Shown one piece after another: positions 16,573 through 63,235 of a DNA stretch of 64,000 nt. Each line of letters begins with the position of its first letter. The stretch's first letter is position 1. Made by a program: the position numbers and the translations under genes. Source of the DNA: Bacteroides sp. (lineage in GTDB: Bacteria; Bacteroidota; Bacteroidia; Bacteroidales; Muribaculaceae). Below the pieces are notes generated by a model. That model searched no databases and had not been told where the DNA came from. It saw only the letters and a list, made by a program, of their open reading frames with translations. Location: the NCBI GenBank assembly GCA_014802435.1, contig JAAVCG010000005.1, positions 1-64,000 of the forward strand, read 5' to 3'.

Positions 16573-16602
16573 ATTTTCGTAAACACTATAACTTTAAAAA
16601 TC

Positions 16603-17853
16603 ATGAAAAAATTACTTCTGCTCGCTTGCGGTCTGCTGATTTCTGGAGCCGCTGTCGCTCAGGAGCAGGTGCTCAAGGAAGCTGAGCGCATGCTCAAAGT
16701 TGAAGTGCCCGATCATGGCAAAGTGGCTACTATGCTTAAAGGCGCTATGGCTGACCCTTCTACGGCCAATAACGTTAAGACCTGGTTCCTTGCCGGTAAA
16801 AACGGTTTCCAGACTTGGCAGACCGGTTATGAACAATACATGCAGGGTGCTAACCCTGACAAGGTTAATATGAGCCGTGCGCTCGTCGAGGGCTATTCTT
16901 ATCTGATGAAGGCCCTTCCGATGGACACTATCGTTGACGATAAGGGTAAAGTTAAGACCAAATACTCCAAGGAGATTGTCAAGCTGATTTCTTCCAGCCC
17001 CAGCTCTTTCCATGATGCCGGCGTCTTCCTTTATGAAAGCAACGATATGGCCGGAGCTTATCATGCTTGGGAAATCTATCAGGAACTCCCCACTCTGGCT
17101 TTCCTCGGCAAGGCTGCGCCCGCGTTTGACCCTGACTCAGTTCGTGCCGCTGACCTCTATAACATGGGTATCTTCGCTTATCAGGCTGACATGAAGCCCG
17201 AAGCTATGAGCGCATTCCTGCGCGCCGGCCGCCTCGGTCATGGTGAAGTGGCTTATGACAATGCCCTGGCTATGGCTTCTGCTATCGGTGACCCGGAAAT
17301 GATTGCCGAAGTGGCCAATGAAGGCTTCAGCAAGTATGGCAAGCAGGCTTATATTGCCGAGCTCATCAACCTCTATATCCGCAATAAGGAATATGACAAG
17401 GCTATGGAGATGCTTGACCGCTCACTGGCTGCTACTCCCAATAATGCCGTGCTCCTTTATTCAAAGGGCGTGCTCGTTGAAAACCAGGTCAACGAAGAAG
17501 GCATCTCTCAGGAAAAGATTGACGCTGCCAATGCCGAGGCTCTTGACCTCTATAAGCAGGCTTCAGAAGCTGACCCCAACAATGCCGAAGCTCATTTCCA
17601 TTATGGACGTATGCTCGCCAACAGGGCTTACACCATGAGCGATAATGCAACTGACCTCTCTGTTTCAGAATATAACGAACTGAAAAAGAACACCCTCGAC
17701 CCGCTCTTCCGTCAGGCTGCCGGTGAACTCGAAAAGTGCATCGAGCTTGACAAGGAAGCTAACCGTCAGGCATTTAGCATCCTCAAGAATATCTATTACA
17801 ACCTCAACGATGAGGCTAACATGAACCGCATTGCCGAGCTCGAACTCGACTGA
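16603..17853 (+). CDS. Tetratricopeptide-repeat periplasmic protein
   Basis: Signal peptide and TPR motifs. Confidence 0.8.
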   Translation: MKKLLLLACGLLISGAAVAQEQVLKEAERMLKVEVPDHGKVATMLKGAMADPSTANNVKTWFLAGKNGFQTWQTGYEQYMQGANPDKVNMSRALVEGYSYLMKALPMDTIVDDKGKVKTKYSKEIVKLISSSPSSFHDAGVFLYESNDMAGAYHAWEIYQELPTLAFLGKAAPAFDPDSVRAADLYNMGIFAYQADMKPEAMSAFLRAGRLGHGEVAYDNALAMASAIGDPEMIAEVANEGFSKYGKQAYIAELINLYIRNKEYDKAMEMLDRSLAATPNNAVLLYSKGVLVENQVNEEGISQEKIDAANAEALDLYKQASEADPNNAEAHFHYGRMLANRAYTMSDNATDLSVSEYNELKKNTLDPLFRQAAGELEKCIELDKEANRQAFSILKNIYYNLNDEANMNRIAELELD

Positions 17854-17883
17854 TTCATGACGCTGAATCTTTAAACATTCGCG

Positions 17884-17913
17884 GAGGGCTGTCAGTGAAA
17901 ACTGATGGCCCTC
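17884..17913 (+). terminator. Hairpin terminator after the TPR gene
   Basis: GAGGGCtgTCAGTgaaaACTGAtgGCCCTC. Confidence 0.7.
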
Positions 17914-17942
17914 TTAAATTTAAGTGCTTTTTTTCTGATTTT

Positions 17943-17974
17943 TTTGCGTGATTCAAATATTTTTCGTAACTTTG
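17943..17974 (+). promoter_or_regulatory. Bacteroidetes-type promoter for clpP-clpX
   Basis: TTTG-N20-TAACTTTG. Confidence 0.65.
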
Positions 17975-18013
17975 ATTAGAAATTTGATAATAATACGAAA
18001 AAGATAAATAGAA

Positions 18014-18712
18014 ATGAACAACTTCATGCACGACGATTTTCGCAAGTTTGCTACCAAACATTGCGGAATTAACCCGTTGGTTTTCGACCAATATACGGCT
18101 CAAGCCAACTCTAACATAACCTCAAGCTATATCAGCCCCACCATCATGGAAGAACGCTCCCTCAATGTTACTCAGATGGACGTTTTCTCCCGCTTGATGA
18201 TGGACCGCATTATCTTCCTCGGCACTCAGGTTGATGATTATAGCGCCAACGTTATTCAGGCTCAGCTGCTTTATCTTGATAATAATGACCCCGGCAAGGA
18301 CGTAAATCTCTATATCAACTCTCCCGGCGGCTCCGTTTATGCCGGCCTCGGTATCTATGACACCATGCAGTATATCAATAGCGACGTCGCTACAATCTGC
18401 ACCGGCATGGCTGCTTCAATGGCTGCCGTGCTCCTCGTGGCCGGTGAAAAGGGTAAGCGATTCGCCCTCAAGCACTCCCGAGTGATGATTCATCAGCCGA
18501 TGGGCGGCGCTCAGGGTCAGGCAAGCGATATTGAAATCACTGCCCGCGAAATCCTCAAACTCAAGCATGAACTCTACTCAATCATTGCTGATCATTCCGG
18601 CCAACCCATTGAAAAGGTCGAGCAGGACAGTGACCGTGACTACTGGATGATTGCCGAGGAAGCCAAGAAATATGGCATGATTGACGAAGTTCTTATCCGC
18701 AGCAAGAAATAA
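18014..18712 (+). CDS. clpP: ATP-dependent Clp protease proteolytic subunit
   Basis: [31 protein letters not shown]. Confidence 0.96.
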
Positions 18713-19968
18713 TGGCAAAAAAGAATTCCGGACATACCTGTAGCTTCTGCGGCGGTCCGATGTCGGCTGATGCCGTCGTCGTCCCCTCACCGCTCGAACC
18801 CGGGGTGTTGATTTGTTCTGACTGTGTTGCCGGCATCAGTGATTTGCTCCGCGACGTTGCCAATGAAAAGCATCGTCGCTCGGGCTCCGACGCCGTCAAG
18901 TCGATGGACGAGGTCCCGACTCCCCGCGAAATCAATGATTATCTGAATCAATACGTCATCGGACAAGATAGCGCTAAACGCTATCTTTCCGTTGCCGTCT
19001 ATAACCACTATAAGCGCCTGGCTCAAAAGAAGGAAGACGATGATGTCGATATTGAAAAAAGCAATATCATCATCGTTGGCCCGACGGGCACCGGCAAGAC
19101 CCTGCTGGCCAAGACCATTGCCCGCCTGCTTGACGTTCCGTTCACCATTGTTGACGCTACGGTCCTGACTGAGGCCGGTTATGTAGGTGAAGACATTGAG
19201 AGCTTGCTCACCCGTCTGCTCCAGGTGGCTGACTATGACGTTGCCAAGGCTGAACGCGGCATTGTCTTCATTGACGAAATTGACAAGATTGCCCGCAAGA
19301 GCGACAATCCGTCAATCACCCGCGACGTTTCCGGCGAAGGCGTTCAGCAAGGGCTCCTCAAGCTCCTTGAAGGCTCAATTGTCAATGTCCCGCCCCAGGG
19401 AGGCCGCAAACACCCTGAAGCCAAGATGATTCAGGTCGACACCAAGAATATCCTCTTCATTTGTGGCGGCGCATTTGACGGCATCGAGCGCAAGATTGCT
19501 AACCGATTGAACACTCACGTCGTTGGTTACGCCACTGACTCCAATAAGCAGAAAATCAAGCGCGACAATTATCTCAGCTATGTGGCCCCGCAGGACCTCA
19601 AGTCTTTCGGCCTTATTCCTGAAATCATTGGCCGTCTGCCCATTTTGACTCATCTTGACCCGCTTGACCGTGACGCCCTTCTGCGCGTTCTGACCGAACC
19701 GAAGAATGCAATCATCAAGCAGTATCAGAAGATGTTTAAGATGGATGGCGTTGAGCTGACTTTTGATTCCGATGCCTTGGAGCTGATTGTTGATAAGGCT
19801 ATTGAATATAAACTCGGTGCGCGCGGTTTGCGCTCCATCGTGGAGTCAATCATGGTCGACATGATGTATGACATCCCCGGAACCGATACCAAGAAGTTGA
19901 ATATTACTCGCGATTATGCTTTGGGGCAGATTCAAAAAGCCCATTTCGAAACAGATATTGTGCAGTAA
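18712..19968 (+). CDS. clpX: ATP-dependent Clp protease ATP-binding subunit ClpX
   Basis: N-terminal zinc-binding [20 protein letters not shown] Walker A. Confidence 0.97.
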
Positions 19969-42281: not shown

Positions 42282-42304
42282 TCATCTGATTATCAGTAAT
42301 TAAT

Positions 42305-42332
42305 AAAAAGTATGTTTAACAACATACTTTTT
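42305..42332 (+). terminator. Terminator of the Bat operon
   Basis: 12-bp perfect stem AAAAAGTATGTT-taac-AACATACTTTTT followed by ATTTTTG. Confidence 0.85.
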
Positions 42333-42335
42333 ATT

Positions 42336-46748: not shown

Positions 46749-47435
46749 TCAGTTCATGATTTTTGTTTTATGGCGGATTGTCGTAAGTAGTTTTTGCAGG
46801 ATGGTTTGGGAGGAGATAGTTAGGTCGGTTTTGATGGGGTTATGGAAATATTTAGAGTTATTTGAGGATATTTCAATGTAATAGTTGCCTTGGGAGTTGG
46901 GCGAGCGGGAGATGGTTTTGACAATTCCAGTACCTATTTCGGGGATGGTTATTTGTTGGCCCGGGGTTATTTTAGATGCGATGTTTTGCGGGATATATGC
47001 GTAGTAGATTGCGTAGTCGGCCGGGCTTTCGTTGGCCACTTTAAGAAGTTCGGTTCCTGCGGGAATCGGGGTGTCTTCGTGGACGGGACCTATGTAGGTT
47101 ACACGTCCGGCTATTGGGGCGGTCGCGCAGGTGCCGTTGGTAAAGGCGAGCAGCGTGTCATTGGCTTTTACCGGGGCGTTGTCAGCGACATATATATGCT
47201 TGATTTTTACTGCCTCGGGCATTGAGATTATGGCGCTTCCGTCTGTGGCGAGGGGTGTGAGTTCGATGTCATAGCGTTCGGGAAGGCGGATGGTTGCACA
47301 CAAAGCCAGCGCGCCAATCAGTATCAGCGCAATCAGGGTTATCCCCCATCGCTGAATCCAAGAGGGGACTGCGCCCATAAGTTCCTGTACTTCTTCGCTA
47401 TGCAGGTCAAGGCCTTTCAGGTTTGGTTCGCTCAT
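46749..47435 (-). CDS. HlyD-like periplasmic adaptor (short) of the C39 exporter
   Basis: N-terminal TM, barrel/lipoyl-like segments; ATGA-type overlap with the exporter gene. Confidence 0.75.
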   Translation of the reverse strand: MSEPNLKGLDLHSEEVQELMGAVPSWIQRWGITLIALILIGALALCATIRLPERYDIELTPLATDGSAIISMPEAVKIKHIYVADNAPVKANDTLLAFTNGTCATAPIAGRVTYIGPVHEDTPIPAGTELLKVANESPADYAIYYAYIPQNIASKITPGQQITIPEIGTGIVKTISRSPNSQGNYYIEISSNNSKYFHNPIKTDLTISSQTILQKLLTTIRHKTKIMN

Positions 47436-49645
47436 GAGAGTCCGAGTTCAATTTGGTTTTTAACGAGTGTATAATATGTTCCTTGGCGGGCGAGGAGTTC
47501 GGAGTGCGTCCCTTCCTCGACCACTTTTCCGTGGTCCATGACGATGATTTTGTCGGCGTCAACAACGGTGCTTAGCCGATGGGCTACGATGACTACGGTC
47601 TTGCCTTTATAGAAGGTCTTGAGATTCTGCATGATGATGCTTTCGTTGTAGGCGTCGAGTGAGTTTGTCGCTTCGTCAAAGAAGATGAATTGCGGATTTT
47701 TGTAGACTGCGCGGGCAATCAGTATACGCTGTTTCTGACCGGAGCTGATGCCGTTACCCTCCATACCGATTTTGGTGTTATAGCCCATCGGCAGGGAAAG
47801 GATAAAGTCCTCGATATTGGCCACCCGGACGGCATGGGCCAGGCGCTCGGGGTCTATCTCGTCGGTCGAGACGGCGATATTGCGGGCTATGGTGTCAGAG
47901 AATATGAAACCCTCCTGCAAGACCGAGCCGGAGACCTCGCGCCACTTGTGAGGATTAAGCATATTGAGCGGCGTCGGACCGATTTTTATAGAGCCGTGCA
48001 TCGGTTCGTAGAAACCCTGAAGGAGTTTTACTATTGTGGTCTTGCCGCTTCCGCTTGCGCCGACAATGGCAGTCACTTTGTTCGGCTCGATGGTGAGGCT
48101 TACCCCGTCGAGGGCGTAGTCCCGCTCGGCCCCGCTATAACTGAATTTAACGTCTGTGAAGGTAATAGGCTTGTCCGTAGGTACTTCGGTCTGCTTTGAT
48201 TCGATGTCCTGTTCCTCGTCAGGCTGTTTGTGGATTTCGTTGAGGCGCTCAAGGCTGATTTTCGCATCCTGGACAGCTTGGGTGAGTCCGATTAGGTCGC
48301 CGATGGGGGCCGACAGTTGACCGATAATGTAGGTCATTGACATCATCATACCGAGGGTCATCTGCCCGTCAATCACGGCTTTGGCGGCGATGAAGGTTAT
48401 CAGGATGTTGGTGCTCTGCGTGAAGAAAGCGCTGCCCACTTGCTGAATCTGGCCGATTGCCAATCCGCGCAGCCCGACTTTGAAGAGTTTCACCTGAATC
48501 CGCTCCCATTCCCAGCGTTTCTGGCGCTCGCTGTTGTTGAGCTTGATTTCCTGCATGCCCTGAATCAACTGGATTACGGAACTCTGCTCGCTCGCCGAGA
48601 GATTGAAGCGTCGGATGTCAAGTTCGCGACGGTATTTCATGAAGCCCCATATCCAAAGGACATAGAGAGCGTTGCCGCCGAGGAAAATCAGCAGGATAGG
48701 CATATAATAGTAGCCCAAGATGGCGGCGAATATCAGGAAGTTGAAGGCTGAGAAGATGATGTTCAGCGAGTTGTTCATCAGCAGCGACTTGATGCGGGCA
48801 TGGTCGCCGATACGCTGCATCAGGTCGCCGGTCATCTTCGAGTCGAAGAAGCGCAGTGGCAACCTCATCAACTTTATCAGGAAGTCTGAAATCAGCGCGA
48901 TGTCAATCCGGGCGTTGACATGAAGTGTAATCCAACTTCGCAGAAACCCGACCATCAACTGCGAGACAAACAGAAAGAGCTGAGCCATCAGAATCATCGT
49001 TACGAACCCGACGTGACGGCCGCCGATGCCCACATCGACAAGCGCCTGAGTCAGAAACGGGAAAATCAACTGCAAGACGCTGCCGATGAGCAACGCCAGA
49101 CCCAACTGGACGAACTGCCGCTTATATGGCAGCAGGTAGCGTCCGAAGTGAGCCAGTCCGCGCCAGGTTGTGTCGCGGCTTTCGCCGGGCGATTCGTAGA
49201 ACTGAGGCGCCGGCTCAAGCAGCAGAACCGTGCCTAACTTTTCTCCATTGGAGTTGCCGGAACTGACCCAGCATTTTTCAAACTCCTTGGCGTCATAGTC
49301 AACAATCTGCGATGCCGGGTCGGCTATGCGGTAAATAGTCTTCCCGCGGCGTTTAAACACTTTGCAGAGGACTACAAAGTGTTTATAATTCCAATGGAGG
49401 ATACAAGGCGTCGGCGCCGCTTTGGTCAAGCGTTCAACAGAAGTGCGGATACCCGTCGAGCGCATACCGATGCTTTCGGCGGCATCGCTTAGTCCAAGCA
49501 TTGAGACACCCTCGCGGGTAATGAACGACCTCTTCTGAAGGGTCTCCAGTGAGTAATGCCGCCCGTAGTACTGCGCAACCATCCGCAGACAAGCCGGGCC
49601 GCAGTCCATCATATTTAGTTGATGATAATGAGGAAACTTTCGCAT
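47432..49645 (-). CDS. Peptidase C39-containing bacteriocin-type ABC exporter
   Basis: C39 N-terminus HYHQLNMMDCGPACLRMVAQYYG; ABC TM; Walker A VGASGSGKTTIVKLL; start at 49645 in a TAATG overlap with the preceding stop. Confidence 0.93.
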   Translation of the reverse strand: MRKFPHYHQLNMMDCGPACLRMVAQYYGRHYSLETLQKRSFITREGVSMLGLSDAAESIGMRSTGIRTSVERLTKAAPTPCILHWNYKHFVVLCKVFKRRGKTIYRIADPASQIVDYDAKEFEKCWVSSGNSNGEKLGTVLLLEPAPQFYESPGESRDTTWRGLAHFGRYLLPYKRQFVQLGLALLIGSVLQLIFPFLTQALVDVGIGGRHVGFVTMILMAQLFLFVSQLMVGFLRSWITLHVNARIDIALISDFLIKLMRLPLRFFDSKMTGDLMQRIGDHARIKSLLMNNSLNIIFSAFNFLIFAAILGYYYMPILLIFLGGNALYVLWIWGFMKYRRELDIRRFNLSASEQSSVIQLIQGMQEIKLNNSERQKRWEWERIQVKLFKVGLRGLAIGQIQQVGSAFFTQSTNILITFIAAKAVIDGQMTLGMMMSMTYIIGQLSAPIGDLIGLTQAVQDAKISLERLNEIHKQPDEEQDIESKQTEVPTDKPITFTDVKFSYSGAERDYALDGVSLTIEPNKVTAIVGASGSGKTTIVKLLQGFYEPMHGSIKIGPTPLNMLNPHKWREVSGSVLQEGFIFSDTIARNIAVSTDEIDPERLAHAVRVANIEDFILSLPMGYNTKIGMEGNGISSGQKQRILIARAVYKNPQFIFFDEATNSLDAYNESIIMQNLKTFYKGKTVVIVAHRLSTVVDADKIIVMDHGKVVEEGTHSELLARQGTYYTLVKNQIELGLS

Positions 49646-52614
49646 TATTTTCGCTTGGGGGTGATTGTCAGGTTGTATGTCAGTGATAGGAGGACGTAGG
49701 AAGGCTGGGTGTTGTAGCGGGTCATACTTATGGATTGAGTGTCGATTGAGCGCGAGAAGGTGGGAATTTGTTGGAGGATGTCGTAGCCGTGGATTTTGAT
49801 CAGCCAATTGCGGGCAAACTTCTTGCTGAGCGAGAGGTTCCATACCCAGTATGGACGGTCAATGTCGGAGTTACCGTAGCCGTAGCGGGTGTTTAGCGTC
49901 AGGGAGGTTTCGAGTCCGATGCCCCAGGGGAGTATGCCTTGGGCTTCGAGTGAGTAGTCAATGTCAGAGTAGCGGGCATTGGCAAATGAGTATTTTTCAG
50001 AGATTTGTCGGTTGAAGCGCATATCAACGTTTGCGCGGATATTGAAGTCGCGGATTGAGAATGACAGCGTGAATCTGTCGCCGAAAGTCCGGTAGTCGGA
50101 GCCTATCGTACCGGGATTGTCTATTTCTGATGAATAATCTACATTATGGCGGAGGCTATGGGAGAACTGGTTTTGAATGAAGAATCGGTTGCGAGGTCCG
50201 AAAGATTGACTGTAACCGAGCGACTGGGAAGTTGACCGGTTGCCGTTAACGTTCATCGGGGTTGAGATAATAGCTCCGGTTTCGGGGTTTAGGAATCGGG
50301 CTCTGGAAACGGCGTCATCAACTTTGCGGTAGTCGATGGACGCACTGATGGAGTGATGTCTTTTGCCGAACGACTTACGGTAGCTTAGCGAGTGGACCCA
50401 TGAACGGGTGTCTTTCAGATTCGGATTTCCCCTATAAATGTTCATCGGGTCAGTGGTATCTTCCTGATCATTGAGCCAGCGCATCTGAGGTAGAGTAAGG
50501 TATGTTGAGAACGAATAACTTAACCCTAAAATGTCAACTTTGGCCGAAGGAATCCACATTTCGGTATATTTCCGTAGGTTGATATGGCTGTGAACTCTGT
50601 TTTCTTGATATTGCCGGTAGTTCAGTTCATATTTGGAGTCAAGAATTATGCTCAGGTTCCAAAATCGGAGTCCAAGGTTTGCGCCGAATTTGTTGATATT
50701 TTCGGTTGAGCGGGAGTCATAACTGTTTATTTCGTCAAGAAGCATAGCCGACGAGCGGGTCAGCAGAGCCGGTTCCAGTTTGGCCTGATTGTCATAATAG
50801 CGGTTGAGGTCTCCCCGGTTGTCGTGGATAGAAAATAAATAGTCGATGGCGCCCTCAATGCTGAACTTTTTGTAAGTATATTTCGCCGAGCCGACGCTGA
50901 GGGTCAGATTCCCGGAGTTGTAGGTTCGCCGCTGTTCTGCCTTGGATATTTGGTTTAAATTATTGACAGCATCGTCAGGATAGATAATCTGTTGGGCGGA
51001 ATTATAGTCCAGGCGGGATGTCCGGAAGTTATAATTGCCATCAAATTTCATTCGGGCAATCGCGGGAATCAAGTAGGGGGCGAGCGCGTAACTGAGGTGG
51101 CCATTGCCTTCATAACTCCTTGACCGTTCATCGTTCTTCAAGGTCTGACGATATTTTATCGCCTCGGTCAGAGGGTCGGCCGACTCGCGATTTTCGAGGT
51201 CCGATTGGCGCGAATTGCTGCTTTCGTCTCTCTTTTCCCGTTCGGTATTCAGGTCAATGGAGGTCTTAAAAAGTCCGAAGCGGAAATGACGCGATAAAAT
51301 ATTATCCCAGCGCAGATCCATTGCGCGTGTCTTTCGGGCGTTTTCGTATGTGCCCAGACGAGAGCCTTCCGTAAAGAGTTCGGTTGTCTCACTTTGTGAT
51401 TCATAAAATCTTTTCCGGCCGCTGACGGTTAGATTCGAATTGAAGCCTTCTCTTTGCTGGTCTTTCCAATAGGTTTTAAATGTAGCACCCGCTTTGGCGG
51501 ACGTGACGAGCCCGGTATGAATGTCGGAAGCTGACCAACGGCCAGAGCCGTCGACCGACGCATCACTATTGACGTTGTTTCCCTGCAGATAAAGCCCATA
51601 CTCGACTCGGGAGTCATAGACCAAGGCGAAGATTCGGCCTAACCATTTCAACGACGGGTCATTGCTGACGTTCACTCCCCCACCAAGAGTATAGTTCGTA
51701 ATCAGCCCTCGGGAAAACTCCTTTTTCAGGTTAACATCAAGTACCAGCGGGTCATTTTCCTTGTCCCGCTCCTCGACTTTGCGGCTGTAGGCAATCTCGT
51801 CGGGCGCTTTTTTGTAGACCTTTATGTCTTTGACGGTATAGTGTGGTAGATTTTCAAGGGCGACTATTGGGTCTCCATTAAAAAACTTCTTACCGTTGAC
51901 AAGAAGTTCGCTGACCGGTTCACCATTGATGGTAATCTGACCACGGCGCGACAGAGAAGCCCCGGGCAAAGCCCTGATCAGGGCGTCAAGCATCGAGCCG
52001 TCGGGCAGATTGAACGCGTCGGCATTGTATACCAGCGTATCGCCGTTATGATACATCTTGATTTTCGTCGCCGTAACGGTCAGTTCCTTCAGCCTCAACG
52101 ATTTATCCTCGGGATAGATTCCATATTTTCCCGCATATAAGTAGGCGATATTGTCATAGACCTTTGCCTCATTCGTTTTCAGACGCATTGTGCGCCCCTC
52201 AAATCCCGGTTTTGTCAGACTGACAATCAGGACACTGTCATAAGGCACCGTAACTGAATATCTCACCGTATTGTTCATCGGGTCACTTAAATCAGGCAGG
52301 TCCATCCGGTCCCCCCTTTCCTTGGCGCGCTTTGCCTCGTCCATCATCTCCGTCTTGCGGTCAATCCAGCCGATGGAATCCACGGAGAATCCACCCGAAA
52401 GGCCGCTGACCGCCACCTTTACCCCGCTCAGAGGCAACTTATTCGACGAATTATAAATTTTCATCGAAAACTGAATCGAATCCGGTGTTTGCGCCTTATC
52501 CTGTGCCTTAGAGACAAGGAGAGTGCAAAAGATTATTAAGAAGGAAACATATAGTCGTATATGACCATATGTCCTATATTTAGCAAATTGTCGACTATAT
52601 GTTTCCATTGGCAT
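49645..52614 (-). CDS. TonB-type outer-membrane beta-barrel protein 1 (CarboxypepD_reg plus plug plus barrel)
   Basis: ELTVTATKIKMYHNGDTLVYNADAF plug-like region, C-terminal barrel SYVLLSLTYNLTITPKRK. Confidence 0.82.
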   Translation of the reverse strand: MPMETYSRQFAKYRTYGHIRLYVSFLIIFCTLLVSKAQDKAQTPDSIQFSMKIYNSSNKLPLSGVKVAVSGLSGGFSVDSIGWIDRKTEMMDEAKRAKERGDRMDLPDLSDPMNNTVRYSVTVPYDSVLIVSLTKPGFEGRTMRLKTNEAKVYDNIAYLYAGKYGIYPEDKSLRLKELTVTATKIKMYHNGDTLVYNADAFNLPDGSMLDALIRALPGASLSRRGQITINGEPVSELLVNGKKFFNGDPIVALENLPHYTVKDIKVYKKAPDEIAYSRKVEERDKENDPLVLDVNLKKEFSRGLITNYTLGGGVNVSNDPSLKWLGRIFALVYDSRVEYGLYLQGNNVNSDASVDGSGRWSASDIHTGLVTSAKAGATFKTYWKDQQREGFNSNLTVSGRKRFYESQSETTELFTEGSRLGTYENARKTRAMDLRWDNILSRHFRFGLFKTSIDLNTEREKRDESSNSRQSDLENRESADPLTEAIKYRQTLKNDERSRSYEGNGHLSYALAPYLIPAIARMKFDGNYNFRTSRLDYNSAQQIIYPDDAVNNLNQISKAEQRRTYNSGNLTLSVGSAKYTYKKFSIEGAIDYLFSIHDNRGDLNRYYDNQAKLEPALLTRSSAMLLDEINSYDSRSTENINKFGANLGLRFWNLSIILDSKYELNYRQYQENRVHSHINLRKYTEMWIPSAKVDILGLSYSFSTYLTLPQMRWLNDQEDTTDPMNIYRGNPNLKDTRSWVHSLSYRKSFGKRHHSISASIDYRKVDDAVSRARFLNPETGAIISTPMNVNGNRSTSQSLGYSQSFGPRNRFFIQNQFSHSLRHNVDYSSEIDNPGTIGSDYRTFGDRFTLSFSIRDFNIRANVDMRFNRQISEKYSFANARYSDIDYSLEAQGILPWGIGLETSLTLNTRYGYGNSDIDRPYWVWNLSLSKKFARNWLIKIHGYDILQQIPTFSRSIDTQSISMTRYNTQPSYVLLSLTYNLTITPKRK
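52543..52606. repeat. 15-bp perfect inverted repeat at the OMP1 gene start
   Basis: GGAAACATATAGTCG (52543-52557) / CGACTATATGTTTCC (52592-52606), 34-nt spacer. Confidence 0.9.
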
Positions 52615-52624
52615 CTAAGTTGCG

Positions 52625-52903
52625 TTAGTAGCCTTTACCGTTAAATTCGATCGAGAATGAACCGGAGTATGATTCACACTTCTTTGTGATGTTTTCGTTG
52701 CATCGACTTGCGCATGCAGTTTCACAACCAGCTGCATCTTTTGCGTCGGAAATAGTTAACGAACGTGTGTCAGGGTCTCCTAAAAGATTATAGGAGCACT
52801 TGCAGACAGGATTGGTTAAATCGCCTGCCAGGATGCCTTTGAGTTCCTCCGGGGTCAGAGGGGTGCCGATGAGTTCGGCAGCAGGAATGATGAGTTTGCT
52901 CAA
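52625..52903 (-). CDS. GG/AG-leader precursor peptide 1, six-Cys core (TTG start)
   Basis: MSKLIIPAAELIGTPLTPEELKGILAG leader; core with C-x-C ... C-x3-C-x3-C-x7-C. Confidence 0.8.
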   Translation of the reverse strand: MSKLIIPAAELIGTPLTPEELKGILAGDLTNPVCKCSYNLLGDPDTRSLTISDAKDAAGCETACASRCNENITKKCESYSGSFSIEFNGKGY

Positions 52904-52940
52904 GATTCTTTTAGGTTTAAATGGTTAATAATTGAGTTTA

Positions 52941-54809
52941 TTAGTGAGGCTTTTGGGCCTCGATTGTTATTGATTCTTTTAGGTATTGTTCTTTGGGGAG
53001 GTAGGGATTGTGTTTGTTGACGTTTTGCAGTTCCTGATGGGTGCTTTCGTTCGGAGAAGTGAGGTTTATATGGTCAAAACCTGATTCGGAGAGGAGAGTG
53101 CAGATTTCTGAGACAAGATGGAGGTAGGCCTTGCTGAGTCGGGCGATGAAAGCATTGATTTGTTTTGAATCAGGCATTTCGCGCAGAGCATCGGCGCGAT
53201 AGAAGGTCAGGCGCAGTGTGCCTCCGGGTGAAAGGATACGGAAACATTCGCTTAAAACTTTCTTGAGCCTTTCAGGTCCGAAATTTTCAATGAGATGCTC
53301 GGCAAAAATGAAGTCAAAGGAACTGTCCGGGGCCGGAATCGGTTGGGTCACATCAAGAAACGTCACTCCAAAGTCCGGTTCAACGTCAGTGTTGAGCCAT
53401 CCGGGCAACTGATTCATCCCGCAGCCCAATTGTAGCGCCTTTGGACCGTCGCCGGCAAGATATTCGGCAATGCTCACCGGGTTGGGTTGCTCCGCCGCAG
53501 TCTTGAACGCCATAGGATAATGGCGCAATTTGACGCGGGCATTGTCGAAGTGGCGGCGAATCATGGAGTCATGGTTGTTTGACTCAGTGATGTCCGAATA
53601 GCCGAAGTCGGTTTGCTCGGAGATGAATGGAACGGTAACCATCTTGGCGGTCAGAAGGGCGGATAGTTTCTCATCGGCCACGTCGCGCAGGCTGAACGGA
53701 GCGCTGAGTATCAGGTCGTAAGCGTTGCGGTAAATGACGATGAACTGTGTACACCAAAATCGGTCAATCCACGCCACACCGCCCGGTAGGGGGACGAGGT
53801 TAGAGAAGTCACCGATGCCGCCCGAAAGCATCTGCGCACCCATTGCTCCGGCGAGCATTATCTGATGCAGAAGGCGCTCGCGATTGTATGCTTCCGTAAA
53901 GAAGTGGTCGTCCTCACATATCAGCACGAAGTCTTCATCGCTCTCCTTGGCTTCGGTGATTATTCGACAGATACTTTGCCAAAGGCCGATAGCGCCGATT
54001 TCGTGGCGCGACGCCTCGACGATATGCAGGTCAAATTCCGGACGGCCCTCAAACTCCTTGCGGATATGCTCCAGGCGGTCTGTTCGCTCCGGAAGGTTGA
54101 TGACGTAAGTGGGGATGAACGCGCGGCTTACGTCGGCCGACATAATGGCGCGCAGGGTATCGGGCGATATGGCTGAGTAGTGATTACGGACCTTATGCAG
54201 CTGAGCAAGAAGGCTTTCATTCTTCTGGAAAAAGCGAGTTACGCGCCCTTCCTCCTCGTTGATACTGGTAGCGTCGGAATAGCCAAACTCGCGCTGAATA
54301 CTGATATAAGGCGCCATAACATATTTTCGTTTGGCCAAATAGGAGAGTTGAATATCAACGGCATAACCCTCAGTGGTCTTTGCGGCAAGAATCTTAGGGT
54401 AGCAGCGGCGGAAAATCACCGTAAACTGCATCCCGTTAAACCAGTTGACCCAAAAAAGTCCCGGCGCAACCTCAACGGGATTGCGACAAACGGACATTCC
54501 ACCCGACAGCAGGTCGGCGTCAAGACTCTGCGCAAGCCGGATATAGTGCAACAATGTATCCCGGCTATAAGCTTCGGTAAAGGCATGGTCATCCTCGCAG
54601 AAGATGAAAAACTCACTTCCCCGGCGCTCCTCTTCCTCGACTATGCCGTAGAAAGTCTGCCACAGCCCATAGGGACCGTTGCGATGCTCGATTGCCGGAA
54701 CGATATGCAACTCAAACTCATCGCGCCCCTCAAACTCGCCGATAATCGACTCCCTGCGCTCAGTCCGAGCCGCAAGATTCACAGCATATACTTGTAGTTT
54801 TTCTGTCAT
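52941..54809 (-). CDS. Tandem GT25-like glycosyltransferase domains fused to a SAM methyltransferase
   Basis: Two copies of ...EDDHxFTEAYxRxxLLHxIxxAxxxxAxxLSGG; C-terminal ALQLGCGMNQLPGWLNTDVEP...FAEHLIENF. Confidence 0.82.
   Translation of the reverse strand: MTEKLQVYAVNLAARTERRESIIGEFEGRDEFELHIVPAIEHRNGPYGLWQTFYGIVEEEERRGSEFFIFCEDDHAFTEAYSRDTLLHYIRLAQSLDADLLSGGMSVCRNPVEVAPGLFWVNWFNGMQFTVIFRRCYPKILAAKTTEGYAVDIQLSYLAKRKYVMAPYISIQREFGYSDATSINEEEGRVTRFFQKNESLLAQLHKVRNHYSAISPDTLRAIMSADVSRAFIPTYVINLPERTDRLEHIRKEFEGRPEFDLHIVEASRHEIGAIGLWQSICRIITEAKESDEDFVLICEDDHFFTEAYNRERLLHQIMLAGAMGAQMLSGGIGDFSNLVPLPGGVAWIDRFWCTQFIVIYRNAYDLILSAPFSLRDVADEKLSALLTAKMVTVPFISEQTDFGYSDITESNNHDSMIRRHFDNARVKLRHYPMAFKTAAEQPNPVSIAEYLAGDGPKALQLGCGMNQLPGWLNTDVEPDFGVTFLDVTQPIPAPDSSFDFIFAEHLIENFGPERLKKVLSECFRILSPGGTLRLTFYRADALREMPDSKQINAFIARLSKAYLHLVSEICTLLSESGFDHINLTSPNESTHQELQNVNKHNPYLPKEQYLKESITIEAQKPH
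52946..52961 (-). promoter_or_regulatory. Conserved stem-loop before precursor 1 (GAGGC-N6-GCCTC)
   Basis: Same element at 58195-58210 and 62899-62913. Confidence 0.5.
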
Positions 54810-54814
54810 TTCGG

Positions 54815-57673
54815 TTATTTCTTTTTCGGTTTGATGTCGAGGCGATAGGTGAGGGAGAGCAGGGCGTAAGATGATACTGTGTTGTAGCGGATCTCGGTGC
54901 GTCCTTGGGCGTTGACGGAGCGTTGGGTGTTGGGGAGTTGGTGGAGGATATCAAACCCTATGGCCTTGACAACCCATTGGTTACTCTTTCCGAAGGCTTT
55001 TGAGAGAGTGAGATTCCATACCCAGTCAGTGGTGTTCATCGCTTTTTCGGCATATCCGCGGCGGCAGTAGGCCATAAGTTCGGTGTCAAGGTCGATTCCC
55101 CAGACAAGGGGCGACGTGGCTGAGACGCCATAGTTGACGTCAAGGTAACTGAACGGGGCAAAAACGTCGCTGAGGCTGACAAGCCTGTTCCATTTCAGGT
55201 CAACAATGCCATTGACGCTGAACGCATTATGTCGCCATGTGAGCTTGAATTTTTCGCTTATTCTGTAGTTGTTGACTTTCAGAAGATCCAGCCCGGAATT
55301 GTTGTCGGACGAGTAATCAACACTGCGCATAAGGGTTGGTATAATAGAGTTGCTGAAATAGAAGCTCTCTCTACGGTCAAGTGCCCGCTGATATGAAATG
55401 TTACCATAGACATTGAAGTTGCCGTTGATGTTGCGAGGTTGCAGTGTTGTCAGACCCGATTGGCGGTCGTAGGTTTGTGCCAATGCAATCAAATTGTTTG
55501 CTTGTTCGTATCCGGCACTGATTGACCAGCGTTGCATATGAGGCAGACCTTCTTGACTGATTTCGGCTTTTAGATTGTGAACGGAAGCTTTCGTCAACTG
55601 GGGATTTCCCAGACGAATCAATAGCGGATTACTCGTGTCTGAAACTTGAAGCATTTCCATCATTTCAGGGAGAATCTGCCTCAAGGACCAAGATATTCTC
55701 CATCCGATTTTGGATTTATTTACGGAGTAAAGCGCGATAATTGGCTGGAAGGTGATATCATTCTTATTCAGACGAAGGAGTTCGTTATAGCGGTAATCGT
55801 TAATTGTGCGGTTATGGAATTCCAAAGGGAGGTCCATCTGGAGCTGAGCCTTGAATATCCGTAATATGAAGGAAGCTGATAGAGAGTTCTTTTTGTTAAG
55901 GCGTGTAGTACTGTAGCTATTTATTTCGTCTAAGACCCATGTATTGGCTGCTGAGGGAACTATCTGTTCTTGGAAGACGCCAGACTCAACTTCGCGACGC
56001 TTGAGCGCACGCGATCCGCTTAAATGTTCCTGCTCGTAGCTGTATGTCAGGTGGCCGTCCATATAACCGTTGATTGGTTTATCCGAACCGAAGCTATGCC
56101 TGAAAGAAAGGGGACTGAAGCTCGCTCCATAGTGATAGCTGTGGCTTGGTTGATGGCCTTGTTGCTGCTCGTCGAGATTATAAGTGGCGTTGAGAGGATA
56201 GTGGAGGTAGTCCCAATTGTTAGCGTTTTCGTTGGCAGAGTTATATTTGCCGAATACGTTGAACAGGACATATCGGTTCGCAAACTTTAAAGGGCTACGA
56301 ACTGCAAAATCGGTCGATAAAGATACGCCCCAACGCTCTTCTTTTTGGTTGTTGAAGACCTTGCGGCTATAGAGTAAAGGAGTACCATCTGTAATACCTT
56401 CTTTGCCGTCTGTTTTTTCAATATTTTCTGAGTATTTGCAGCTGTTATGATGATAGAATGCTGCGGGCTTAACATTTAGCCAACCCCAGTCCCATTTTTT
56501 GTTCATGTTGCCGTTCCATTTCAGTTCGGTTGAATTGTTGTGGGAGTTGCTCGCCGAGCGGCTGAACGTATTTCCCCCCTCGAGGTATGTCTCGGTAAAT
56601 GTCTGCCTCCCTAATTTAACGTTACGTCTCTCGGCTTGTAGAGTCGTGTTGAAACTAAGCCGTTTCGATTTGTTTTCATTGCTATAATCAACTCCGGCAG
56701 ATTTGACGGTTATTTCGCCGCTTCCAGGGTCGGTTTTTATCCAGGTTCCACTGCTTGATGCTTCGCGCGTATCGTTCAGATTATTAGCGTTGGCATATAC
56801 TGATATGCTCTGAACCGGAGTGTAATACATAGCGAATACTCGCCCTAACCACTTCAAGTCAGCGCGATCATAGAGCGTTGATCCCAGACCTAATTCATAG
56901 TTGGAAATCAATCCCTTAGCATATTCTCGCTTAAGTTTAACGTCCATAACCAATGGGTCCTCCTTTGTCTTCGCCATTCCATTGAGTCCCTTCATTTCGT
57001 CCTCTTTACGATAAACCTGAATCTTATTTACCGTATAGGCGGGCAGATTGCTCAGAGCAACGCGCGGATCTCCCTTGAAGAAGTCTCGGCCGTTGACCAT
57101 TAGCGACGATACAAACTCGCCGTTAATCGTTATGCGCCCGTTTTCGTGCAACTCTGCGCCGGGGAGCGCCTTTATGAGATTATCGAGCATCGAACCCTCC
57201 GAGAGCTGAAAAGCCGCTGCATTATACTCGATAGTATCCCCCTTCATGACCATCTTGACCCGTGTAGCCGTCGCCGTGACCTCATTCAGCAATTTGGCGT
57301 TCATTTTCGGGAACATCTCTACGTCAGGAAGCCACAAAAGAGCTCCGGGTTTTAAAGCTAATTTAGTCGGCTTAAACTCAATAACCTTATTGTCATAACC
57401 ACTTACAATAAAAGTCAATGAGTAATATTTCATCATAGGGACCTGAACAACAAATCTCCCGTTATCACCTTCTACATTGATCTTAACCGAATCTGCAATT
57501 AGTTTATTTCCTGTCGTTCGGATTTCGAAAATATGATTACCTAATATCGGTTCTCCATTAAAACCATCAATTACACTTCCGGCAAAATATACAGAGTCAA
57601 TCTTCTCTGAGTGAGTAGCAAAACAAAAGATTGAGTTCGTCAATAATAATATTATAACTAAAAATACTCTCAT
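54815..57673 (-). CDS. TonB-type outer-membrane beta-barrel protein 2
   Basis: Paralog of 49645-52614 and 59915-62857; EVTATATRVKMVMKGDTIEYNAAAFQL; C-term SYALLSLTYRLDIKPKKK. Confidence 0.82.
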   Translation of the reverse strand: MRVFLVIILLLTNSIFCFATHSEKIDSVYFAGSVIDGFNGEPILGNHIFEIRTTGNKLIADSVKINVEGDNGRFVVQVPMMKYYSLTFIVSGYDNKVIEFKPTKLALKPGALLWLPDVEMFPKMNAKLLNEVTATATRVKMVMKGDTIEYNAAAFQLSEGSMLDNLIKALPGAELHENGRITINGEFVSSLMVNGRDFFKGDPRVALSNLPAYTVNKIQVYRKEDEMKGLNGMAKTKEDPLVMDVKLKREYAKGLISNYELGLGSTLYDRADLKWLGRVFAMYYTPVQSISVYANANNLNDTREASSSGTWIKTDPGSGEITVKSAGVDYSNENKSKRLSFNTTLQAERRNVKLGRQTFTETYLEGGNTFSRSASNSHNNSTELKWNGNMNKKWDWGWLNVKPAAFYHHNSCKYSENIEKTDGKEGITDGTPLLYSRKVFNNQKEERWGVSLSTDFAVRSPLKFANRYVLFNVFGKYNSANENANNWDYLHYPLNATYNLDEQQQGHQPSHSYHYGASFSPLSFRHSFGSDKPINGYMDGHLTYSYEQEHLSGSRALKRREVESGVFQEQIVPSAANTWVLDEINSYSTTRLNKKNSLSASFILRIFKAQLQMDLPLEFHNRTINDYRYNELLRLNKNDITFQPIIALYSVNKSKIGWRISWSLRQILPEMMEMLQVSDTSNPLLIRLGNPQLTKASVHNLKAEISQEGLPHMQRWSISAGYEQANNLIALAQTYDRQSGLTTLQPRNINGNFNVYGNISYQRALDRRESFYFSNSIIPTLMRSVDYSSDNNSGLDLLKVNNYRISEKFKLTWRHNAFSVNGIVDLKWNRLVSLSDVFAPFSYLDVNYGVSATSPLVWGIDLDTELMAYCRRGYAEKAMNTTDWVWNLTLSKAFGKSNQWVVKAIGFDILHQLPNTQRSVNAQGRTEIRYNTVSSYALLSLTYRLDIKPKKK

Positions 57674-57898: not shown

Positions 57899-58153
57899 TT
57901 AACTATCTATTGCTGAGAATGAGATAGAGTAATCGTAGCAGTTCTCCGTTTTAGAACAGAGATCTTTGCATTCTGACCGGCATTCTTTTTCGGTTGTAAT
58001 GCCATTAAGTTCCTTGCCAACTCCGGTAGCTCCTAACACTTTCAGGTGACAAGAGCATGAGTAAGTGGTTGCTCCGGCAATGATGCCTTTGAGTTCCTCC
58101 GGTGTCAGAGGGGTGCCGATGAGTTCGGCAGCAGGAATGATGAGTTTGCTCAT
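57899..58153 (-). CDS. GG/AG-leader precursor peptide 2, six-Cys core
   Basis: MSKLIIPAAELIGTPLTPEELKGIIAG leader; CSC...CRSECKDLCSKTENC core. Confidence 0.82.
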   Translation of the reverse strand: MSKLIIPAAELIGTPLTPEELKGIIAGATTYSCSCHLKVLGATGVGKELNGITTEKECRSECKDLCSKTENCYDYSISFSAIDS

Positions 58154-58218: not shown

Positions 58219-59790
58219 TCAGGTGTAGAGGTAAATGAGGTCTTCGACAGTGTAGCCGGCGGGGAGTGGCTTGCCGTCAATAAGGATTGTTGGGGTCGCT
58301 GATATTCCCGCTTTTGCGGTCCATTTGTCGTGACGGATGAGTTCATCGACTATCTCCTTGGCGGTTTCCGCGGGGATTTCCTGCTCAGGAGGATTGGCAA
58401 AGGGATGCTCCTTGGGGTGACCGTTTGTGTACCAGTCTGTTAGCAATTTCCATGTCGCTTGTTGGCCTTCAGTCTTGTAGGTTTCGACAATTCGTTTGTT
58501 TACGGGCGCGAGGTCGGGGTTGAAGTAGGTAAAGAAATATTGAATTCTGAACCCGGCGTCAATCAGTGGCTCAAGGCGCGAGTGCATCCTTCCGCACGGA
58601 TTGCAGAATGGGTTGCCGACAATGGTTATCAGCGGCAATTCCGAGTCAGGATTGCCGAAGAAGATGCTTGAAGCCTCCTCGCCCTCAACGGGATACGTCT
58701 CCGGGGAGTCACGCAGCAGTGAGTCCCAGATATGACTGTCAAACTTTATTTGGCGCAGTGATGTATTCTCCTTTTTGTCCTTCTCTGCAGCCGTATAATA
58801 ATCACTCAGATATCGCAGTGTGCTCATTATCAGCCAGTAAGCTGCGGCCAATGCCGCAAGGGCGCAAAGTAGAGGAAGAGTCAGTATAACATCCCGATAT
58901 ATGCCCCCGACAATCATGACTACGAACGCAACCCATACGCAAACCATGACCAGGAGGCAAAGCGCACACCACGACTTACGCTTAAACCCTTGGTAAGCAA
59001 CGCTCCATAGCGTTAAAGGTAGCGCAAGGGCCACGGCGATACTTACCGCTCCACCCAATCCCTGCGGACTACTAAGGAGCGTTGCCACTAAATTTACGCC
59101 GAAAAAGGCTATGCCGGCAATGCTCAGGTCAAATATTCCGAACAGTAGAGGCCCCGGGCCTGGGGATTTGTGCGGGTCAGTGCAACCGGCTGAGTTCAAC
59201 AGGCTGCAAATCTTGTCGGCAGCGGTGCTGTTGATATTCAGTTGCTTCTTAAGGAGCAAAACAGAGAGCCATGTTCCTAAAATATAAACAAGGCCGAGAG
59301 ATATGCTCAATGCCGAGAGTCTGCCGGCGACCGCTGCGCCCACAAGCAAGACAATAAGCCCGAGGCTGGACAAGACTGTCTGCAACCGATTGCTACGCTC
59401 TTCCCGGCGGTGGTCTTTCAGATTAGGTTCAGAAGAGGATTCCGATGCCTTAACTATCATTACTGTGCCGGTCCAGGCCTGCTTAAAAGTATCAAGCGGC
59501 GCCGAAAATGCACCGGATGAGGTCCGATATTTAACCTCATCGTCGGTTACCGAGGTGACTACCACGCAGTCGCCCGAGGCCTGGGCGACAAACGGACATG
59601 GAATCCGCCCAATCTGCTCCTTATTAGAAACGCGCAGCGACGTATGGTCAACGCCATAGCGGTTCAGAATCTGCCCGATGGCCCATAGCGAAGCGCCGTA
59701 AGGCATCTCCCGCTCTACTTGCCGGAGGTAGAGCGGAGTGAACGGCACTTTCAATTCCGAAAGAATGATTTCAATAATTGGCTGCGGCAT
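58219..59790 (-). CDS. Degenerate C39-like domain, VKOR membrane domain and DsbA-like thioredoxin fusion
   Basis: VKOR-type WCALC; thioredoxin-type FCNPCGRMH and cis-Pro ISATPTILIDGKPL; N-terminus C39-like without catalytic Cys. Confidence 0.85.
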   Translation of the reverse strand: MPQPIIEIILSELKVPFTPLYLRQVEREMPYGASLWAIGQILNRYGVDHTSLRVSNKEQIGRIPCPFVAQASGDCVVVTSVTDDEVKYRTSSGAFSAPLDTFKQAWTGTVMIVKASESSSEPNLKDHRREERSNRLQTVLSSLGLIVLLVGAAVAGRLSALSISLGLVYILGTWLSVLLLKKQLNINSTAADKICSLLNSAGCTDPHKSPGPGPLLFGIFDLSIAGIAFFGVNLVATLLSSPQGLGGAVSIAVALALPLTLWSVAYQGFKRKSWCALCLLVMVCVWVAFVVMIVGGIYRDVILTLPLLCALAALAAAYWLIMSTLRYLSDYYTAAEKDKKENTSLRQIKFDSHIWDSLLRDSPETYPVEGEEASSIFFGNPDSELPLITIVGNPFCNPCGRMHSRLEPLIDAGFRIQYFFTYFNPDLAPVNKRIVETYKTEGQQATWKLLTDWYTNGHPKEHPFANPPEQEIPAETAKEIVDELIRHDKWTAKAGISATPTILIDGKPLPAGYTVEDLIYLYT

Positions 59791-59914: not shown

Positions 59915-62857
59915 TTATTTTCGCTTGGGTTTGATGTCGAGGCGATAGGAGAGAGTTAGCAGGGCATAGGCCGGCTGGGAGTTGAGGCGGGTTTCGGAGC
60001 GGCCCTGGGCGTTGAGGGTACGTTGTACGGTTGGGAGCTGTTGAAGCAGGTCGAAGCCGATGGCCTTGACGGTCCATTGCTTTGCGCTGCCGAAGGACTT
60101 ACTGATTTCGAGGTTCCAGACCCAGTCCGTGCGGTTCATAGTTGCGTCGCCATAACCGCGGCGGCAGTAGGCCATCAGGTCGGTGTCAATGTAGACTTCT
60201 CCCGGGATTTTTGCGCGTCCACCGATGCCATAATTAATGTCCAGATAGTCAAATGGCAGGAAAAGTCCGTCGAGGCTCTTCATCTGAGTCCAGCTGACGT
60301 TGACCTTGGCATTCAATTTGAAATCTGCCGAAAAGTTAAAACTCAGGCGGAAATCATCACGGATTGTCCAACTATTGACGGCTACGGCCACAGGAATGTC
60401 TGAATCTGATGAATAATCAACGTTATGTCTAAATCGCGGTATAAATGAATTGTTAAATTCGAGATTATTGTTTCGGGTCAGGAAAGAGAACGTTTCAAGT
60501 TTAATGTTTGCTGTCCAGTTTCCGTTGATATTGGCGGGTTGCCAAGTCGTAACGCCTGTTTCGCGATTATAGGTGCGCGCCATTGCCAATGCGTCGTCAA
60601 CCTTACTCCATCCCGCCGATAAATCAAACTGGGTCTTTAATCCTGTGCTTTTTTTATGACGGATGTAAGCTGATGCTGTATAAGTCTTCGCGCGCTTGAG
60701 GTTGGGGTTGCCGAGATTGGTGACCATCGGATTTGACGAGTCGCGGACATCAAGCATCTTCAGCATATCAGGCAACTCCTGATAGAAATTTCCGTCAAAG
60801 CCCCAGCTAAGCCCGGGAGTCCAGTAATCGCCATAGTCGAATTTGATTCTGGCGGAGTTTTTCCAATCATTGCGCGCAACTTCGCGCATGGTTTGCATGC
60901 GGAAGTCGGTCAGTCGACGAATTGAATATGTGGAGGCTCCCGAGAACGAAAGGCCATATTTGCCGCCAAAACTATAGGCGATATAGGCATTAATTCCGTT
61001 GTTCCATTCCCGGCGGGTGGTGTGATAACTATTTGCTTCATCAAGAAACCAACTTCCGAATTCTGACATAGAGGGCGCGTCTGAATCCGACTCTTGGAGA
61101 TTCATTTCTTCGAGAGAGCGTCGGCCGAGATTGTATTTTTGCTCATATTGATAGCCCAATCGTAAATTGAGGAATTTCGTTTCTGAAAGAGCAATCCTAT
61201 ATCTGTCCCATGATGGGGATATGGAGAAATTATAGTCTCTTGACGGGGCCAAATCATGTTGCAGGAGGTTGATGTCGCGATTCAGAATATTGGGATAAAT
61301 AATGAGGTCTGAGCTTTTGGAAGACACTCGCGAATTATTGTGAGCACCTTGGATTTCAATGCCGGCGCTACCATATTTGGATGGCAAGCAGTATAAGTTG
61401 AAGAGCAAGCGGCTCTTGACACCAAATTTTTGATCGCGGCTGAGCAGACGCTGACTGCGATAATAGAGCATATCTTGAGCAAAGTCTATTGAACCGGGGG
61501 CGGTGAAGTTCTCCGGGAGCATAGAGTTGCTTTCGGCCGAGGAGGAGGTGCGTCGGCCTGTACCTTTATCAAAGTTTATGTCCGTGCGGAACCAAATGCG
61601 CCCGATTCTATCAAAGCGGCGTGAGATTTCCCCTCCCCAGTCAATACTCCATGAACTGCGGCGAGCGGAATTCTTTGAACGGCTAAACGTGTTCCCACCT
61701 TCCATAAATTGCTCGCTTATGGCCGTTTGACCGGTCAGGCTCGTCTGGCGAACGATATTGAATGTCGTATTTATGCCGTTATAGCTTTGGTCGGCCCAGT
61801 CCGTGTTAAACTCTATTCCGGCGCGTTTGGTCGTGGTCTCGCCGGCGGAAACCTGCGGTTTATACCATTGACCTTTTGAACCGGCTTTTGCCGGGTCGTT
61901 AAGATTATTGGCCGAGGCATGAAGCGCAAGATAATTAAGTTTGGTATAGCGCATTGCAAACAGTCGGCCCATCCAGCGGGTATCCCACGCATTTTTCAGC
62001 GACGTGCCGCCACCGATTTCGCCGTTGGCAAGCCATCCGCCCATATATTCCTTTTTGAGGTTTACGTCCATGACCAAGGGGTCATTACTCTTATCGCGCT
62101 CAATGTTTCTCCCGCGGAATTCCTCCGGCTCGCGGCGATAGACCTGCACGTTTTTGACGGTAAACGCCGGGAGACTGCGCAAGGCAACTTGCGGGTCACC
62201 CTGAAAGAACTTGCGACCGTTGACCAACAGTTGATCTACAAACTGCCCGTTGACCGTAATCCGCCCGTTATCATCTAATTGCGCCCCCGGAAGTTCACGA
62301 ATCAGATTGTCAAGCATCGAACCCTCCGGAAGTTGAAAGGCCGTAGCGTCATATTCCAAGGTGTCGCCTTTCATCACCATCTTAACCTTTGTGGCCGTGA
62401 CGGTTACTTCATTCAGTCGATGTTCCTTTTGCGGGCGTCTTAGATATATTGCGCCCAACTCTACAAATGAAACCTTTTCCCCGGAGAATATCACCGATTT
62501 TTTTTCTACGTCAAACTCTTCCGTTTGATAGCCCTTTGCAGAGATTGTTACCTGATATTTGTCATGCTCGGGTACCGTTCCCTCATAGCGAACGATTTCA
62601 TAGGCTGAACGATAGCTCTCAGAAATTTCATATCCGATAGAATCTACCAACACGACTCCAAGAGAATCCCGTATAGTGATTTTTGCGTTTTTTAATGGTA
62701 GTTCCGTAACAGCGTCAAAAACGCTCCCAATTACGTTTATTGAGTTCTTTGGCTCACTGCATAGGCAGTACCCCCATATCATCATTGCGATTATTGTCAT
62801 TCCTATCCGCCTAAACGGATAGGAATGACATGTCGTTACTTTAATGAGTTTGCTCAT
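59915..62857 (-). CDS. TonB-type outer-membrane beta-barrel protein 3 with chimeric 5' end
   Basis: Plug EVTVTATKVKMVMKGDTLEYDATAFQL; C-term AYALLTLSYRLDIKPKRK; N-terminal MSKLI from a precursor gene; probable original start at 62800 (MTIIAMM). Confidence 0.82.
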   Translation of the reverse strand: MSKLIKVTTCHSYPFRRIGMTIIAMMIWGYCLCSEPKNSINVIGSVFDAVTELPLKNAKITIRDSLGVVLVDSIGYEISESYRSAYEIVRYEGTVPEHDKYQVTISAKGYQTEEFDVEKKSVIFSGEKVSFVELGAIYLRRPQKEHRLNEVTVTATKVKMVMKGDTLEYDATAFQLPEGSMLDNLIRELPGAQLDDNGRITVNGQFVDQLLVNGRKFFQGDPQVALRSLPAFTVKNVQVYRREPEEFRGRNIERDKSNDPLVMDVNLKKEYMGGWLANGEIGGGTSLKNAWDTRWMGRLFAMRYTKLNYLALHASANNLNDPAKAGSKGQWYKPQVSAGETTTKRAGIEFNTDWADQSYNGINTTFNIVRQTSLTGQTAISEQFMEGGNTFSRSKNSARRSSWSIDWGGEISRRFDRIGRIWFRTDINFDKGTGRRTSSSAESNSMLPENFTAPGSIDFAQDMLYYRSQRLLSRDQKFGVKSRLLFNLYCLPSKYGSAGIEIQGAHNNSRVSSKSSDLIIYPNILNRDINLLQHDLAPSRDYNFSISPSWDRYRIALSETKFLNLRLGYQYEQKYNLGRRSLEEMNLQESDSDAPSMSEFGSWFLDEANSYHTTRREWNNGINAYIAYSFGGKYGLSFSGASTYSIRRLTDFRMQTMREVARNDWKNSARIKFDYGDYWTPGLSWGFDGNFYQELPDMLKMLDVRDSSNPMVTNLGNPNLKRAKTYTASAYIRHKKSTGLKTQFDLSAGWSKVDDALAMARTYNRETGVTTWQPANINGNWTANIKLETFSFLTRNNNLEFNNSFIPRFRHNVDYSSDSDIPVAVAVNSWTIRDDFRLSFNFSADFKLNAKVNVSWTQMKSLDGLFLPFDYLDINYGIGGRAKIPGEVYIDTDLMAYCRRGYGDATMNRTDWVWNLEISKSFGSAKQWTVKAIGFDLLQQLPTVQRTLNAQGRSETRLNSQPAYALLTLSYRLDIKPKRK
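62795..62830. repeat. 15-bp perfect inverted repeat at the OMP3 gene start
   Basis: TGTCATTCCTATCCG-cctaaa-CGGATAGGAATGACA. Confidence 0.93.
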
Positions 62858-62898
62858 GATTCTTTTGGTTAAAGTAGTTAATAGATTGATTTATTAGT

Positions 62899-62913
62899 GA
62901 GGCACGTGGCCTC
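62899..62913 (-). promoter_or_regulatory. Conserved stem-loop before the lost third precursor (GAGGC-N5-GCCTC)
   Basis: Homologous to 52946-52961 and 58195-58210. Confidence 0.5.
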
Positions 62914-62915
62914 GT

Positions 62916-63174
62916 TTTTGGTCAGGTGGTAAATAAGGTTTTCAACGGTGTAGCCGGAGGGGAGTGGCTTGCCGTCGATGAGGATAGTTGGGGTGGAGGA
63001 GATTCACGCTTTTGCGGTCCATTTGTCGTGACGGATGAGTTCATCTACTATCTCCTTGGCGGTTTCGATGGGGATTTCCTGCTCAGGAGGATTGGCAAAG
63101 ATTTGCCGGAGGTAGAGCGGAGTGAACGGTACTTTCAATTCCGAAAGAATGATTTCAATAATTGGCTGCGGCAT
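62916..63174 (-). pseudogene. Remnant of a second C39-like/VKOR/DsbA gene with internal deletion and nonsense codon
   Basis: N-terminal 24 codons (MPQPIIEIILSELKVPFTPLYLRQ) joined in frame to IFANPPEQEIPIETAKEIVDELIRHDKWTAKA then TGA at 63004-63006; C-terminal homology continues past the stop. Confidence 0.92.
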
Positions 63175-63203: not shown

Positions 63204-63235
63204 CAAATTTATGTAAAAAAAATGAGATATACAAA
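63204..63235 (-). promoter_or_regulatory. Duplicated promoter upstream of the VKOR pseudogene
   Basis: Minus strand TTTG-N20-TAAATTTG, homologous to 59820-59851. Confidence 0.65.

Follow-up and report, generated by a model that had tools for sequence, protein, structure and literature searches.

Apparent loss of a peptide precursor at the start of the barrel gene OMP3 in a Muribaculaceae peptide/barrel cluster

Results

The window analysed here is a stretch of 64,000 nucleotides (C5:1-64000) from a 2.48 Mb genome assembled in 45 contigs; the contig itself continues to 526 kb. A cluster of peptide and barrel genes occupies its minus strand from ∼77 kb down to 47 kb. The cluster contains seven barrel genes (74068-76896, 70836-73700, 66577-69915, 63441-66233, 59915-62857, 54815-57673 and 49645-52614), four intact precursors (starts at 70195, 66513, 58153 and 52903), one core-truncated precursor (start at 74001), three VKOR remnants and one intact C39-like/VKOR/thioredoxin gene, together with a GT25-like/methyltransferase protein and an ABC exporter with a C39 peptidase.

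The barrel gene studied here, OMP3, is an open reading frame of 980 amino acids on the minus strand (59915..62857) with no internal stop, and is assigned to a barrel family through its homologs. On the same strand lie the intact C39-like/VKOR/thioredoxin gene (58219..59790), with Pfam matches to VKOR and Peptidase_C39, and two intact precursors that served for comparison: a Cys-rich one with a GG-type leader (57899..58153) and one with a TTG start (52625..52903). The TTG (at 52890-52909 of the window) is peculiar to that gene, as all other precursors start with ATG. The ABC exporter (47432..49843, minus strand), recognized by its domain matches including the C39 peptidase domain, is the probable leader-cleaving exporter of the cluster. 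The GT25-like/methyltransferase protein (52941-54809 of the window) is conserved in the sister species G006 with a dN/dS of 0.10. At the upstream end of the cluster (L008), the precursor at C5 73800-74001 has an intact leader and an internally deleted, frameshifted core (the core-truncated precursor, C5 73909-74001), and a VKOR gene cut to its first ∼60 nt (C5 76897-77020) stands directly before the barrel at C5 74068-76896. This barrel has no precursor and represents a second precursor-less module.

The DNA upstream of OMP3 consists of elements shared with the precursor genes, all on the minus strand. A promoter-like site (63204..63235; TTTG, 20 nt, TAAATTTG), recognized against the Bacteroidetes promoter consensus TTTG/TAnnTTTG, is located upstream of a VKOR-thioredoxin remnant (62922..63174) with an internal deletion, whose junction is the same as in the remnant at C5 ∼70519. 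The remaining VKOR copies, the intact gene as well as the remnants, follow the same promoter-like DNA. Next comes the UTR hairpin GAGGC-CACGT-GCCTC (62899..62913), found in the precursor genes by alignment of all precursor 5' regions and folding, and then ATGAGCAAACTCAT, encoding MSKLI (62844..62857), which folds around the start codon into a hairpin of 5 bp, marks the end of the homology and appears to be the retained 5' end of a lost precursor. The 20-mer around the start, AGAATCATGAGCAAACTCAT, occurs without mismatches at 62863-62844 (OMP3) and 58159-58140 (precursor), and with one mismatch at 52909-52890, against a shuffled expectation of 0.02 on average.

The upstream module has a duplicate on the same contig, outside the window. 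Positions 63366-62844 align with C5 70711-70182 at 93.8% identity over 520 ungapped columns, and both copies carry the promoter-like site, the VKOR remnant, the GAGGC/GCCTC hairpin, the UTR and ATGAGCAAACTCAT. The duplicate runs on into an intact precursor (C5 69929-70195), and on the OMP3 side the homology stops after base 2 of codon 5 (ATT versus ATC, both Ile). The original prediction, which had the OMP3 upstream DNA and first codons matching the precursor genes with their hairpin and 5'UTR, thus holds for a far longer shared stretch than it proposed. The switch from precursor to barrel sequence that it placed at codon 6 is real, with the match ending inside codon 5, and the span of 59915-62920 that it gave to OMP3 included the UTR. 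It did not mention the VKOR remnant just upstream or the inverted repeat described below. Past the junction, alignment scores were at chance level (shuffle fractions of 0.77 for the rest of the leader, 0.46 for the module copy and 0.53 for the precursor core of the sister species), which speaks against a hidden leader or core remnant downstream. The absence of a match past the junction, together with a duplicate that leads into an intact precursor, argues that the module upstream of OMP3 formerly had a precursor.

The join itself contains two further elements on the minus strand. A 13-nt joiner, TAAAGTAACGACA (62831..62843), had no other copy when a source was looked for in the sequence analysed. 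It is followed by a perfect inverted repeat with 15-bp arms and a 6-nt loop (62795..62830; TGTCATTCCTATCCG-TTTAGG-CGGATAGGAATGACA), whose stem contains the ATG of Met20 (62798-62800). This is one of two perfect repeats with arms of at least 12 bp and loops of at most 10 nt in 100.9 kb. The other perfect 15-bp inverted repeat in the 101 kb, at 42302-42335 of the window, is AT-rich (AATAAAAAGTATGTT). Even when one mismatch was allowed, the genome showed no second copy of the repeat arm, and the inverted repeat was found neither in 296 other family genomes nor in viral contigs, which rules out a dispersed element or transposon end. Its position 13 nt from the junction has a chance of ∼0.2% by density, assessed post hoc, and is unlikely to be accidental. 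The repeat might, as a speculation, be a fold-back copy arising in the joining event.

The inverted repeat bears on where OMP3 is translated from. The hydrophobic stretch MTIIAMMIWGYC, which had been taken for a normal signal sequence, lacks an n-region when translation starts at Met20, and the fold places every base of the Met20 AUG in a paired stem of −25.7 kcal/mol; a usable signal needs the fused start. Starting at the precursor ATG adds the n-region MSKLIKVTTCHSYPFRR with four K/R. A K or R precedes the hydrophobic core in 14 of 15 other barrel starts from the present and related genomes, some of which are themselves uncertain (for example OMP1), the sole exception being the OMP4 ortholog of the sister species (MNGLIP). 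With the Met20 AUG buried and no n-region behind it, we infer that the precursor ATG is the likely start of OMP3. The open frame across the join is mildly informative, with a probability of ∼0.12 by chance.

In the sister species (L043, L040), the OMP3 ortholog encodes 969 aa with 91-92% identity. An intact Cys-rich precursor of 86 aa (L043:16208-16468) is located 66 nt upstream of this ortholog (16535-19444). The sister species also shows a reciprocal loss: before its OMP4 ortholog (L043:6073-6200), a precursor reads ATGAGCAAACT and then jumps out of frame into the precursor core, and the precursor cut there is intact in the present genome. Both breakpoints, at OMP3 and at ATGAGCAAACT, fall within the mini-hairpin ATGAG-CAAA-CTCAT or on its border. 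This hints at a break-prone site, with two cases being too few for a claim. All other copies of the precursor-type UTR in both genomes lead into a whole or broken precursor. Colinearity with the sister species fails on both sides of the join, as the barrel 5' segment is divergent and the upstream gene order is different.

The divergence of the barrel 5' segment is strongly localized. Between OMP3 and its ortholog, synonymous differences per site amount to 0.97, 0.73 and 0.50 in the blocks of the alignment that end at codons 54, 114 and 174, and to 0.03-0.16 in the rest of the gene except for its last 26 codons (0.34); the overall value for OMP4 is about 0.08. The DNA identity rises stepwise near codon 150. 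Near-saturation of synonymous sites in codons ∼1-150 with a closely related remainder shows that the 5' ∼450 nt are an allele from another lineage. By synonymous divergence per block, this imported segment, comprising the signal peptide and the N-terminal domain, corresponds to 62400..62797 on the minus strand, with an approximate edge. In a comparison with 297 family genomes, its closest relative, at 70%, was the ortholog of the sister species.

Values of dN/dS between OMP3 and the ortholog are below 1 in most blocks, reflecting selection that may predate the precursor loss. The residue changes assignable to a lineage are balanced, with five in the OMP3 lineage and four in that of the sister species, and 18 remained without assignment. 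OMP3-like barrels in another genome, G007, have their own promoter and no precursor, which indicates that such barrels can stand alone. Two of seven aligned OMP3 homologs match OMP_b-brl_3 (PF14905; best 4e-24) and the homolog N-domains weakly match CarboxypepD_reg, whereas OMP3 itself has no match to PF14905 at E up to 1, and the curated cut-off is not reached. No sequence relatives of OMP3 were found in PDB, and its structure prediction is of low confidence (mean pLDDT 44). The functions of peptide and barrel discussed below are putative.

The peptides have a narrow distribution. None of the NCBIfam models matches the precursors above cut-off. Precursors were detected in two of 297 family genomes, the present genome and the sister species, and in a draw of 393 genomes from the order they were detected in the present genome alone. 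VKOR relatives occur in 142 of the 297 family genomes and, at three of the six loci that were inspected, adjoin a barrel. One further genome, G001, has a 118-aa Cys-rich open reading frame with a leader-like start (LTPEE), flanked by a barrel and a VKOR gene (L077:3289-3645), and its sequence suggests that the arrangement extends beyond the present leader family.

Discussion

The sequence comparisons give good support to the loss of a precursor ahead of OMP3. This reading rests on the precursor before the ortholog in the sister species, on the duplicate module leading into a precursor, and on the independent truncation in the sister species at nearly the same base. OMP3 is probably an orphan barrel: the peptide was lost, while the barrel, with its imported 5' segment, was kept and took over the peptide start in the same frame. 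A complete unit of the cluster would comprise a promoter, a VKOR oxidase or its remnant, a UTR hairpin, a Cys-rich peptide with a GG leader and a barrel. Judged against the duplicate, the OMP3 unit lacks all of the peptide gene beyond base 14, and the remaining peptide start is fused, with the frame kept, to a barrel gene carrying an imported divergent 5' allele. The inverted repeat at the join was probably made in the same event. OMP3 would then likely be read from the peptide ATG, with residues 1-17 giving the charged n-region. As the weakest step, and most simply, the barrel may have been kept without its peptide because it still has an independent task, for example protecting against the peptides that neighbours make or recognizing them.

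The original prediction explained the junction by deletion of a third precursor. The ortholog, the module duplicate and the truncation in the sister species bear out the loss, and the imported 5' ∼450 nt make a plain deletion an incomplete account. The event may have been a deletion after import or a single recombination that created the join, and because the 5' segment is imported, a precursor may at no time have stood directly before this particular OMP3 allele. A related possibility, which we regard as somewhat unlikely, is that recombination joined the 5' end of a module (promoter, VKOR remnant, UTR and 14 bases) to an incoming barrel that had never been preceded by a precursor. The import itself would fit such a capture, as would the self-standing relatives in G007. 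It sits poorly with the precursor before the ortholog and with the other UTR copies, each of which is followed by a precursor, whole or broken, and the module copy lost its precursor in either case. The counter-evidence named in the original prediction, relatives whose barrels all carry MSKLI with no precursor homology, did not turn up: in the genus search, no other barrel aligned to OMP3 from its first residue.

Two further explanations concern the reading of the junction. The MSKLI stretch could be leftover upstream sequence, with translation beginning at Met20, which shares the frame and immediately precedes the hydrophobic stretch. The strong pairing of this AUG, the missing n-region and the intact start context of the precursor make such a start improbable. 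An assembly error is easier to imagine at a module end that forms a ∼520 nt repeat, with a palindrome at the join, in a genome of 45 contigs. We consider it very improbable, since the repeat copies differ at ∼6% of sites, the reading frame stays open, the contig extends far beyond the join and another genome bears a comparable scar.

The literature on the exact peptide-VKOR-barrel arrangement offered nothing closer than the bacteroidetocins and a Bacteroidales RiPP survey. Bacteroidetocins are class IIf bacteriocins, whose loci pair a secreted antibacterial peptide with a thiol oxidoreductase and a transporter/peptidase; their leaders have 15-16 aa and the Cys-containing mature peptides about 42 aa (PMC6671954). 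The present cluster similarly combines, in one locus of a member of Bacteroidota, short Cys-containing peptides and their double-glycine-type leaders with a nearby C39-type ABC exporter and thiol oxidoreductase. In contrast to bacteroidetocins, the leader here has 27 aa to the GG-type site and the core 56-65 aa, there are many peptides per cluster, and a large barrel follows each peptide; any antibacterial activity of these peptides is putative. We do not claim membership in the bacteroidetocins because the leader and mature lengths differ. A second parallel is found in the orphan immunity arrays of the V. cholerae T6SS, where the attack gene is displaced or lost, the neighbouring partner is kept and recombinant mosaic genes arise (PMC5361080). 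Here too a partner gene is retained after loss of the putative attack gene, and genes are mosaic; unlike in V. cholerae, there is no such secretion system and the protective role of the barrels is putative. By this analogy, we infer that the cluster barrels may act as orphan immunity genes.

The cluster is best read as a bacteriocin-like peptide/barrel array that loses peptides and keeps barrels. A broader and more doubtful picture treats the cluster as a cassette array: every secreted Cys-rich peptide would have a dedicated barrel for self-protection or as a receptor, recombination in the near-identical leader DNA would swap or remove peptides while sparing the barrels, and an orphan barrel could capture the peptide start and expression signals. 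The OMP3 junction appears to be a genuine mark left by the loss of a peptide gene, in a rapidly changing cluster of a gut bacterium. The two sister genomes offer a graded record of the decay of peptide/barrel modules, from intact through core-truncated and leader-truncated to start-fused, in which the losses are reciprocal. Should the barrels turn out to be peptide-specific, the reciprocal orphan barrels would predict which strain tolerates or senses which peptide.
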